Shown here piece by piece: positions 1,290 through 3,914 of a stretch of DNA of 36,990 bases. Source of the stretch: Desulfonatronovibrio sp. (GTDB lineage: Bacteria > Desulfobacterota > Desulfovibrionia > Desulfovibrionales > Desulfonatronovibrionaceae); assembly GCA_003557865.1 (NCBI GenBank), contig PWNK01000014.1, positions 1 to 36,990 on the forward strand, in the 5' to 3' direction. The notes under the pieces were generated by a model. That model had not been told where the DNA came from. It was given only the letters and a program-made list of their open reading frames with translations, and ran no database searches. A program made the translations under genes and the position numbers. Position 1 is the stretch's first letter, and every line of letters begins with the position of its first letter.

Positions 1290-2909
1290 TTATTTGCCAA
1301 AGGGGCACTTGGGGTAGGTACATGATTTACAGGTCAGGCAGAGTCCGCCTTCGGCAAACTGGGCCAGGTCGAGCCTGGTGATCCTGATCCCTGCCAGAAG
1401 TCTTGGCAGCAGCAGGTCAAAGCTGGTGGTTTTGAAATACAGGGCACAGGCCGGAACTCCGATTACGGCCACAGAGTCCAGCCTTGTAAGCATGGTCATG
1501 GCCCCGGGTAACACTGGGGCTCCGTAAAGCATGTCAGTGGCGCCCGCGTCTTCAATTCCTTTTCTTGTAATATCGTCGGGGTCCACAGACAGCCCCGCTG
1601 TGGTGACAATGATCTCAGCGCCTGAATCTACCAGGGCATGAACCGATTCCTTAATTTTATGGCGGTCATCAGGGCAGATAATGGTTTTGACTACTTGAGA
1701 GCCCAGTTTGTTGACCTTGTCAGTGATGATAGGTTCAAAGCGGTCCTTGATGATTCCCTCGTAAACCTCTGTTCCGGTAATGAGCAGGCCGACCTTTTTT
1801 TGGGGCAATGTCAAAACATCAAATAAAGGCCCTGCTTCAAGGACCTGCATGGCTTTCTGATAATTAGCCCTGGAAATATATAAGGGTATGGCCCTGGTGC
1901 CGGCTATTACAGTGTCCCTGTTGACCATGACATGATTTTGCCGGCTGGCACACATGACCTGGGGGACAAGGTTGAAAGCAAGCAGATTTTCCCGGTTGAC
2001 GCGCAGCAGCCCGTCCCTGGAGGCTTTGAGATCAAGCTTTCCTTCCCTAGGGGGCAGGTCAAATCTTACTCCCTGGCCTGCCATGGCCTGGGCAAAACTT
2101 TCTGCGGCATCGTCTTCATGAATCCATTTTTTCCCATCAGGCTTGTGATCTGAATATATGTTCTGCCGCCCAATCTGCTGCAGTCTGCACATGTCCCCGA
2201 CAGTGATTTCCTGGCCTCTTTTGATTACCGGACCCTTGAAACCGGCTTCAGGGTCAATTCCGGTCATGTCATGAACCGCCTTTTTGCCCACGGCCTTTTT
2301 CAGAGGAATTTTTTCCAGCACTGGAGCTTCATGGGACTCTGCCCGCTGAACATAAGGGCTCTCTCCGTGACATCCCCGGCAGGCAGCGCCGTCATCGCCG
2401 GGAAAGGGCTCCCTGCAGATGGGGCAGATGACTATTCTGGCCATTTTTTTGCCGGAAAGCCTGTTCAGGTCAACCTGAACTGTTTCAGCTGTAAACATAC
2501 CCTGACCCGCTTGTCTGATCTGGGACATGAGCAGATCAAAGCTCTGCTCCTTTTTGGGCTTGAGCTTGAGAAGCCAGGCGTGGACTTCAGGCCAGTTTTC
2601 CAGTTTTTTTAAATCGATAAAAACCCGAACGCCTTGACCGGTGTACTTGTCGTACAGGGTTAGGGCGTAGCGTCCCAGGTTGATTATCTTCAGCCAGCCA
2701 TTGCCGATGGTACACAGGGTCAGCAGCTGGACAGCGTCAGGAAGGCACTTGGGAGTCTCGGCAATGGCGTCAAATATGGTCTCAGGAGGCAGTTTTTCTC
2801 TGGCCATATCCACCATGATTCCCCCGATGATGATCCCTGGTGCCGGGCTCCCATGAAAATTTCTGACAACTTCAATAAACTCATCAAATTCATACTGTCC
2901 TATGCGCAT
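1290..2909 (-). CDS. FmdE-domain / molybdopterin-binding (MoeA-like) fusion protein
   Basis: A 539-residue protein combining an FmdE-like N-terminal domain (about 1-150, ending near TLCTIGNGWLKIINLG and TGQGVRVFID), a zinc-ribbon-like segment (about 160-185, CPIC then CRGC), and a MoeA/MogA-type molybdopterin-binding domain (about 330-515, TGTEVYEG and TTAGLSVDPDDITRKG). It ends with a cysteine cluster, CLTCKSC then CPFGK, that could bind a metal or an iron-sulfur centre. Likely role: handling of molybdenum or tungsten cofactor for oxidoreductases such as formate dehydrogenase (inference). Unusually, the HGHxCPG metal motif of typical FmdE proteins reads HGSPAPG here, so the second His and the Cys are missing. 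The ATG at 2909 has GGGGGA close upstream. The gene has a long leader with a promoter, a candidate riboswitch and an inserted repeat element. Confidence 0.85.
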   Translation of the reverse strand: MRIGQYEFDEFIEVVRNFHGSPAPGIIIGGIMVDMAREKLPPETIFDAIAETPKCLPDAVQLLTLCTIGNGWLKIINLGRYALTLYDKYTGQGVRVFIDLKKLENWPEVHAWLLKLKPKKEQSFDLLMSQIRQAGQGMFTAETVQVDLNRLSGKKMARIVICPICREPFPGDDGAACRGCHGESPYVQRAESHEAPVLEKIPLKKAVGKKAVHDMTGIDPEAGFKGPVIKRGQEITVGDMCRLQQIGRQNIYSDHKPDGKKWIHEDDAAESFAQAMAGQGVRFDLPPREGKLDLKASRDGLLRVNRENLLAFNLVPQVMCASRQNHVMVNRDTVIAGTRAIPLYISRANYQKAMQVLEAGPLFDVLTLPQKKVGLLITGTEVYEGIIKDRFEPIITDKVNKLGSQVVKTIICPDDRHKIKESVHALVDSGAEIIVTTAGLSVDPDDITRKGIEDAGATDMLYGAPVLPGAMTMLTRLDSVAVIGVPACALYFKTTSFDLLLPRLLAGIRITRLDLAQFAEGGLCLTCKSCTYPKCPFGK

Positions 2910-2941
2910 CGTTCCCCCTATATGATCATTCTGTAAAAATT

Positions 2942-3105
2942 TAATTGGCGTATCTGTTTAGCGCTTTTAAGGAATGCAGGGGACAGGCACTCCGGGACCC
3001 ACTTGAGCATCATTTTGCGCTTAAAATGTCTTATTTTTGAAACAAGCGGGTCCCGGAAGAGCCAGTCCCCGTGCGACATGCAAAGCTAAACAGATACTAA
3101 TTGGC
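2942..3105. mobile_element. MITE-like element (148 bp) with 8-bp target duplication
   Basis: The core at 2950-3097 begins GTATCTGTTTAGC and ends with the exact reverse complement GCTAAACAGATAC. It is flanked on both sides by the direct repeat TAATTGGC (2942-2949 and 3098-3105). Inside, GGGGACAGGCACTCCGGGACCC (left) pairs imperfectly with its counterpart on the right, so most of the element is a long hairpin. There is no room for a transposase. Perfect terminal repeats plus a duplication at the exact boundaries is the standard signature of a non-autonomous DDE-type element. It lies between the leader RNA and the start of the FmdE/MoeA-like gene. Confidence 0.85.
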
Positions 3106-3111
3106 AATAAT

Positions 3112-3250
3112 CATGGCTCAAGCCCCGTTGGAAAACCATCCCGGAAGCTGATGGCGGTTGAGCAGGTCCTGATCAGTGCCAGTATCCATTATCTAGTTTT
3201 CATCCGGAAACGGTTCTTTCTCCTTTTGGCGGGGCCCGGCTTATACTGGC
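3112..3250 (-). ncRNA. Structured 5' leader, candidate Moco/Tuco-type riboswitch
   Basis: Read on the minus strand, the leader of the FmdE/MoeA-like gene folds into an 8-bp closing stem, GCCAGTAT (3243-3250) with ATACTGGC (3178-3185). This encloses a purine-rich core with GGGCCCCGCC and GAAAGAACCG. A second module follows, with GCTCAA (3159-3164) pairing TTGAGC (3116-3121) and an inner CCATC/GATGG hairpin, which could be the expression platform. The downstream gene is a molybdopterin-type protein, and the Moco RNA motif is known upstream of molybdenum and tungsten cofactor genes. The structure is seen in the sequence; the riboswitch identity is inferred from context and partial resemblance. 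Confidence 0.45.
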
Positions 3251-3263
3251 AAATAAACAATAA

Positions 3264-3292
3264 ATAATAGCCATTTCTTTCAAAATGGGCAA
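3264..3292 (-). promoter_or_regulatory. Sigma70-type promoter for the FmdE/MoeA-like leader
   Basis: On the minus strand, TTGCCC (3287-3292) and TATTAT (3264-3269) are separated by exactly 17 bases. Transcription would start about 10 bases before the first stem of the structured leader, giving a 5' untranslated region of about 350 bases including the inserted element. Confidence 0.55.
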
Positions 3293-3431
3293 TCTGAAAT
3301 ATATTCAGGGGATCTGTTCAACTATTTATCAATACCCAAGGACTACATTTCTATAGTTGTGTTCTACAGTCGGCATACCTGCATTTAAAAAACAGCTTGT
3401 CAGAATATATGGCCCTGATTTACAAAAAGGA

Positions 3432-3914
3432 ATGCAGACCATTAATCAGTCGCTGGATTCGTGGCTTTCCCGCTTTGATCCTGACGGCAGCAGGTACCTG
3501 TTTTATGTCATCTGCAAGAACTGGGAGCGTATTGTTGGTCCGGAAATATCCGCCCTGGCCAAGCCAATGGGTCGGAGCAAAGCCACCCTTATCCTGGGCG
3601 CGGAGGACAGCATGGTTATCCAGGAGATTTCATTTCTTTCAACCCAGATTCTTGGAAGGATAAATGCCTTTTGCGGTTCTCCTTTTTTTGACAAGACACG
3701 TGTTGAATTGCTAAAGGGAAGGATTCCGCTGGATAGAAAGCTTGTGCATGAACCAGACTTGAAAACATCCCTGAAAAGACCTGAACGTATAGGAGGTTTG
3801 ATGGGAATGGCAGAAGAAGGCTCCGCTGTTGCCCGATGCTATGCCAGGTACGTGGAGTTTATGAAGCGGAACCGGGATGAAGCGCCTGGGATAAAATATA
3901 TTGACTCAAAATGA
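3432..3914 (+). CDS. DUF721/DciA-like protein
   Basis: A DUF721 (DciA-like) protein. DciA is known as the replicative-helicase loader or regulator in bacteria without DnaC. The core SLDSWLSRF, YVICKNWERIVGPEISALAKP, then LILGAEDSMVIQEISFLSTQILGRIN matches the family: a compact domain with the W..IVG..I..... signature. The open frame extends upstream to a TTG at 3357, but the extra 25 residues have no family resemblance. ATG 3432 is preferred although its purine tract (AAAAAGGA) directly touches the start, so the start is uncertain. It is followed 18 bases later by a small coiled-coil gene on the same strand. The C-terminal tail (about 115-160) is variable and basic. Confidence 0.8.
   Translation: MQTINQSLDSWLSRFDPDGSRYLFYVICKNWERIVGPEISALAKPMGRSKATLILGAEDSMVIQEISFLSTQILGRINAFCGSPFFDKTRVELLKGRIPLDRKLVHEPDLKTSLKRPERIGGLMGMAEEGSAVARCYARYVEFMKRNRDEAPGIKYIDSK

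Follow-up and report, generated by a model that had tools for sequence, protein, structure and literature searches.

Several families of MITEs are present in high copy numbers in bacteria. RUP, NEMIS, ERIC, and Nezha are listed among the bacterial MITEs (PMC3733652), and MITECca01 of Cardinium, which is derived from IS982, has 169 copies (PMC9769881). The element that we describe here resembles these families in being short and non-coding, in being bounded by terminal inverted repeats (TIRs), in being mostly intergenic, and in forming a large hairpin. It differs from MITECca01 and the other MITEs in its family of TIRs and in its host, and it is palindromic over nearly its full length. Furthermore, MITECca01 coexists with its parent IS, while the parent IS of the family described here was not found.

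TIMEs are non-autonomous elements that are derived from Tn3, and mosaic derivatives of TIMEs have been reported (PMC4133298). Our family is likewise non-autonomous and likewise looks mosaic, but TIMEs have 5-bp duplications and inverted repeats of ~38 bp, whereas here a palindromic core is common to elements with two types of ends and duplications. The element is a real and well-defined MITE; its mosaic structure is still thinly sampled.

The closest transposases to consider are those of the IS66 family, whose elements have 8-bp repeats and ends that start with GTAAGCG (PMC11946415). ISDge4, an active element from the ISBst12 group, has the TIR GTAACTGCTCAGCA and an 8-bp repeat (PMC12898284).

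A MITE with perfect ends

The window is the whole stretch of DNA that we analyzed (36,990 nucleotides from Desulfonatronovibrio sp.). The features in and around the MITE are (with the strand, where one applies):

1290–2909, minus strand: gene with an FmdE domain, a zinc finger, and a MoCF_biosynth (MoeA-like) domain (from Pfam)
2942–2949: left target site duplication TAATTGGC, outside the unit that is conserved among copies (from the sequence)
2950–2962, plus strand: left TIR GTATCTGTTTAGC (from the sequence, the TIR counts, and recovery of the inverted repeat)
2950–3097: MITE, 148 bp, non-coding, TIR subfamily GTATCTG, inner hairpin type A
2979–2990, plus strand: left arm of the core palindrome, GGGGACAGGCAC, common to MITEs with other types of ends
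2991–3057: inner hairpin type A, with arms at 2991–3005 and 3043–3057 (from compensatory changes in relatives)
3059–3070, minus strand: right arm of the core palindrome (GAGCCAGTCCCC on the plus strand)
3085–3097, minus strand: right TIR (GCTAAACAGATAC as the window reads; from recovery of the inverted repeat)
3098–3105: right target site duplication TAATTGGC (from the sequence)
3196–3232: solo end of a second dispersed MITE family, with TIR GTTTTCATCCGGAAACGG (6-bp duplications elsewhere)
3357–3914, plus strand: divergent DciA-like gene

Over 2942–3105, the window reads TAATTGGC, GTATCTGTTTAGC ... GCTAAACAGATAC, TAATTGGC. The TIRs form a perfect (13/13) inverted repeat, which was also recovered by an independent computation, and an exact 8-bp duplication borders the MITE on both sides. 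The initial annotation, which was made from the sequence alone, had reported a MITE with perfect 13-bp TIRs and an exact 8-bp duplication, and this was correct to the base. Because the copies from the same genome align over exactly positions 17–164 of a 180-bp query, which correspond to 2950–3097, the conserved unit ends with the TIRs, which leaves the 8-bp repeat as flanking DNA. The element in the window is a true MITE. Just inside the right TIR, the window copy has lost 2 bp of the usual AGCGC. When folded as DNA, the MITE reaches -39.5 kcal/mol, versus -19.0 ± 2.8 kcal/mol for shuffled sequences (z = -7.35).

Copies in this genome and its relatives

The genome that contains the window (G000; 1.8 Mb in 172 contigs, 86.6% complete) has 51 candidate copies of the MITE, and many of these are cut by the ends of contigs. 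The further copies that the initial annotation anticipated were found both by searching with the whole element (over 30 strong matches) and by searching with the 13-bp TIR (36 occurrences with one mismatch allowed, versus 0 for the reversed pattern). This genome has about 30–40 related copies, and its relatives have up to a few hundred. Numerous copies are also present in G003, G006, G009, and G012; the exact TIR occurs 86 times in G009, 143 times in G003, and 375 times in G006, and the reversed-pattern controls gave 0.

Matches were found in 8 of the 101 genomes searched, including the window's own. These genomes belong to two genera from one family, which we infer to be the Desulfonatronovibrionaceae. 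The plasmid and phage collections that we searched, and the viral contigs that we scanned for the exact TIR, contained no match. In the open-access literature that we searched, we found nothing about the transposable elements of this lineage. This MITE family, with its ISBst12/IS66-type ends, is apparently undescribed and is added here to the Desulfonatronovibrionaceae lineage. The location of MITE copies at many contig ends suggests that they help to fragment these assemblies.

The palindrome is maintained across the family. Among 14 diverse copies, 97.1% of the paired cells were kept, while slid versions of the pairing pair at most 45%. Also, 24 cells of the palindrome in these copies were changed on both sides, versus 8.8 in shuffles.

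Target duplications, empty sites, and age

We read 65 complete elements together with both of their flanks. The target duplication is 8/8 in 41 of them and at least 7/8 in 52. The sequence of the duplication varies from copy to copy. The MITEs avoid inserting into genes or open frames: just 5 of 51 junctions fall within an open frame of 150 codons or more, whereas 44% of positions drawn at random from these flanks do.

The initial annotation's reading of the element as an insertion is supported by empty sites for two other copies. (For these comparisons, the insert and one copy of the 8-bp duplication were left out and the flanks were then aligned.) The flanks of one copy from the window's own genome (L061) align, without a gap at the junction, to over 20 copies of another repeat that are uninterrupted. 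Those of a copy from G009 (L113) align in the same way to an uninterrupted repeat that is 96% identical. The window locus itself lacks an orthologous empty site because five congeners carry another gene there. We also noticed that the MITE has a further repeat as an insertion target (L149:2178–2313, the flanks of L113, L168, and L169). The ends of this repeat resemble GTAACC[AC]TTCAGG and its core is GGGGACTGTCCCC, and it may itself be a MITE family whose ends are of the GTAAC type.

The exact duplication in the window had been taken to imply a recent event. But relative to the consensus for its own genome, the window copy carries 6 substitutions and has lost 2 bp in one deletion. In G009, by contrast, 8 of 22 copies match the G009 consensus exactly. 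Given this divergence, the exact duplication is not enough to show that the insertion was recent. More broadly, an intact 8-bp duplication alone cannot date an insertion.

The likely mobilizer

The TIRs take the form GTATCTGTTTAGC in the window, which starts with GTATC, or GTAACAGTTTAGC in a subfamily that starts with GTAAC. (The end of the family is also written as GTAWCWGTTYAGC.) Together with the 8-bp duplications, these TIRs are consistent with the ISBst12 group of IS66, which makes this group the likely mobilizer in trans. Either form of the TIR matches 10 of the 13 terminal bases of ISDge4, a likeness that we noticed after the fact. Two ISBst12-like elements with 8/8 duplications, in L128 and in Thiomargarita (L224), have the TIRs GTAACTTCTCAATAG and GTAACTACTCAAGAACT (also given as GTAACTACTCAAG), respectively. 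So, the MITE has in common with this group the 8-bp duplication, 10 of the 13 terminal bases of ISDge4, and, in the GTAAC subfamily (the window copy has GTATC), the start of the TIR. Unlike a full IS, the MITE is ~150 bp, it has no transposase gene, and its partner was not found.

We propose that a DDE transposase, most likely from the ISBst12 group of IS66 and supplied in trans, would recognize the 13-bp ends GTAWCWGTTTAGC and would paste the MITE into 8-bp staggered cuts, mostly outside of genes. The family would have spread through soda-lake sulfate reducers (Desulfonatronovibrionaceae) as a high-copy, non-coding element, and at the window, a copy would have inserted into the region that separates the divergent dciA-like and fmdE/moeA-like genes. 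The family, its copies, ends, and duplications, its avoidance of open frames, and the empty sites at other loci are matters of observation, and from these we infer the family of the transposase and its supply in trans. Overall, we think it probable that this is a high-copy non-coding MITE family that is mobilized in trans, with an ISBst12/IS66-type DDE transposase as the best candidate.

Across the genomes that we examined and the loci that we read, we found no autonomous element that has the ends of the MITE. The initial annotation had expected a mobilizing transposase elsewhere in the genome, and a full transposon with the same ends was looked for; no locus that we read contains such a transposon, and the genome's assembly has no match to the IS66 transposase (PF03050). 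Because this assembly is 86.6% complete, the missing partner is not proof of absence. Because no autonomous partner was found, we do not file the MITE as a member of IS66, only as most likely mobilized by IS66. Alternatively, the mobilizer could be from another DDE family that also makes 8-bp duplications, which would accord with our not finding an IS66 element with the MITE's ends. However, this seems unlikely given that the TIRs start with GTAAC and match an ISBst12-group element at 10 of 13 bases.

Several candidates for the partner were rejected. In G006 (L128), an IS66 tnpC gene and a DruA-like gene lie between MITE ends that are 2.8 kb apart, which could be the parent transposon. But inner TIRs (22/22) and an 8/8 duplication (CAAAAACA) identify this as an IS66 element that is nested inside a copy of the MITE:

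L128:315–2936: IS66 (ISBst12-like) element, 2622 bp, whose second gene has a DruA domain (PF14236), nested in a MITE copy

The two multi-copy types of IS66 in G009 have different ends (GTAAGCG and GTGT). A 717-bp element in G003 (L153) has matching ends, but no transposase was seen in it and it looks like a chain of repeats. Finally, nearly all of the unpaired TIRs in G009 and G003 are from copies of the MITE with one end mutated or truncated.

As for the IS66 elements themselves, a transposase identical to that of L128 is present on a Desulfonatronovibrio contig (L223), and type B of the IS66 elements in G009 (L198) also has a gene that is similar in sequence to the DruA-domain protein.

The neighboring genes and the supposed riboswitch

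The gene with the FmdE and MoCF_biosynth domains starts at ATG 2909 (minus strand), and the MITE is located 40 bp upstream of this start codon. A plausible Shine-Dalgarno sequence (AGGGGG) precedes this ATG. The initial annotation placed the insertion in a structured leader, between a putative riboswitch and this gene. That a large hairpin sits in the gene's putative 5' region is supported. If transcribed, the leader with the MITE included would fold strongly as RNA (z = -4.1). The riboswitch did not hold up. Neither strand of the window has an Rfam match above the gathering score for any family, and a permissive Rfam search of 2900–3420 gave only eukaryotic or viral miRNA models, far below their thresholds, which are generic matches to hairpins. 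Also, on the gene's strand, 3106–3356 folds no better than shuffled sequences (z = -0.56).

The repeated part of this "riboswitch" (3196–3232) is instead the end of another MITE, and it recurs in most genomes of the MITE-bearing family. This second MITE family is about 150–190 bp with the TIR GTTTCCATCCGGAAA, and full copies (in L234–L257) have 6-bp duplications such as TATGTA, TATCTG, TAGATA, or TCATTA. Because the window carries only one end of this second family, the intergenic region comprises an intact MITE and a solo end of another. This case shows that the end of a MITE can pass for a riboswitch.

In five congeners, the fmdE/moeA-like gene is 80–84% identical at the protein level and is directly preceded by another gene, which the window lacks. 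This upstream gene (L174–L178) is about 600 nt and is on the same strand as the fmdE/moeA-like gene. In the window, the MITE and the MITE fragment occupy its place.

If the MITE is transcribed, it might possibly affect the fmdE/moeA-like gene by forming a strong hairpin. We considered that the MITE might have been domesticated as a regulatory hairpin and kept by selection in this leader, as its proximity to the start codon and the strong fold of the leader might suggest. G003 and G009 also have independent copies of the MITE close to the orthologous gene, ~860 bp upstream in G003 (L175) and downstream in G009 (L179). But no relative has the MITE at the same position, and the congeners have their other gene there. 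It is the whole family that is palindromic, not just the copy at this site. Furthermore, a scan for promoters gave one weak match, as expected by chance (the mean for shuffled sequences was 1.0), and a scan for terminators found none. Domestication is thus improbable. Rather than a new device for controlling genes, the MITE in the window appears to be an ordinary parasite that is moved by a transposase encoded elsewhere.

Cores shared between types of ends

Between the arms of the core, GGGGACAGGCAC and GAGCCAGTCCCC, lies an inner hairpin of one of several interchangeable types (A, B, C, or D). This core also occurs between entirely different ends (ACTACAGCGAAACTTA), as do some of the inner hairpins. 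In the copies with these ends that we read, TA is present at the same position outside both ends:

L162:856–997, L162:7738–7879, L262:1460–1607, L060:628–768, and L155:908–1054: third type of MITE, with ends ACTACAGCGAAACTTA, flanking TA on both sides, and the core of the window's MITE

TA flanking both ends is expected of an IS630/Tc1-type element. There is also an apparent hybrid (L091) with an end of the 8-bp type on one side and an end of the TA type on the other. So, the MITE family looks mosaic. We tentatively suggest, at somewhat short of an even chance, that the palindromic cores are interchangeable modules that pass between 8-bp-duplicating (IS66-like) and TA-duplicating (IS630/Tc1-like) families of MITEs. 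Exchange of modules through the shared hairpins is the simplest reading of these elements, of which few are of the TA type. If this is correct, then recombination through the hairpins that they share could give rise to new families of MITEs, and the exchange of cores would be a naturally replicated case of bacterial MITEs changing the transposase that they depend on.

The core also raises the idea that the window's MITE is a REP/BIME-like palindrome, with GGGGACAGGCAC...GAGCCAGTCCCC as the REP, that is moved by a RAYT (Y1 HUH) tyrosine transposase; RAYT-like Y1 transposases are present (one in the window's genome and many in G009) and the core does occur in elements with other ends, but this reading is disfavored and very improbable, as the core is not generally found beside the 20 RAYT loci that we read, the RAYT locus in the window's genome also lacks a flanking core, and neither clean 8-bp duplications nor 13-bp TIRs would be expected from HUH enzymes. 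The number of matches to Y1_Tnp (RAYT-like) varies between the genomes, with 31 in G009 and 1 in the window's genome.
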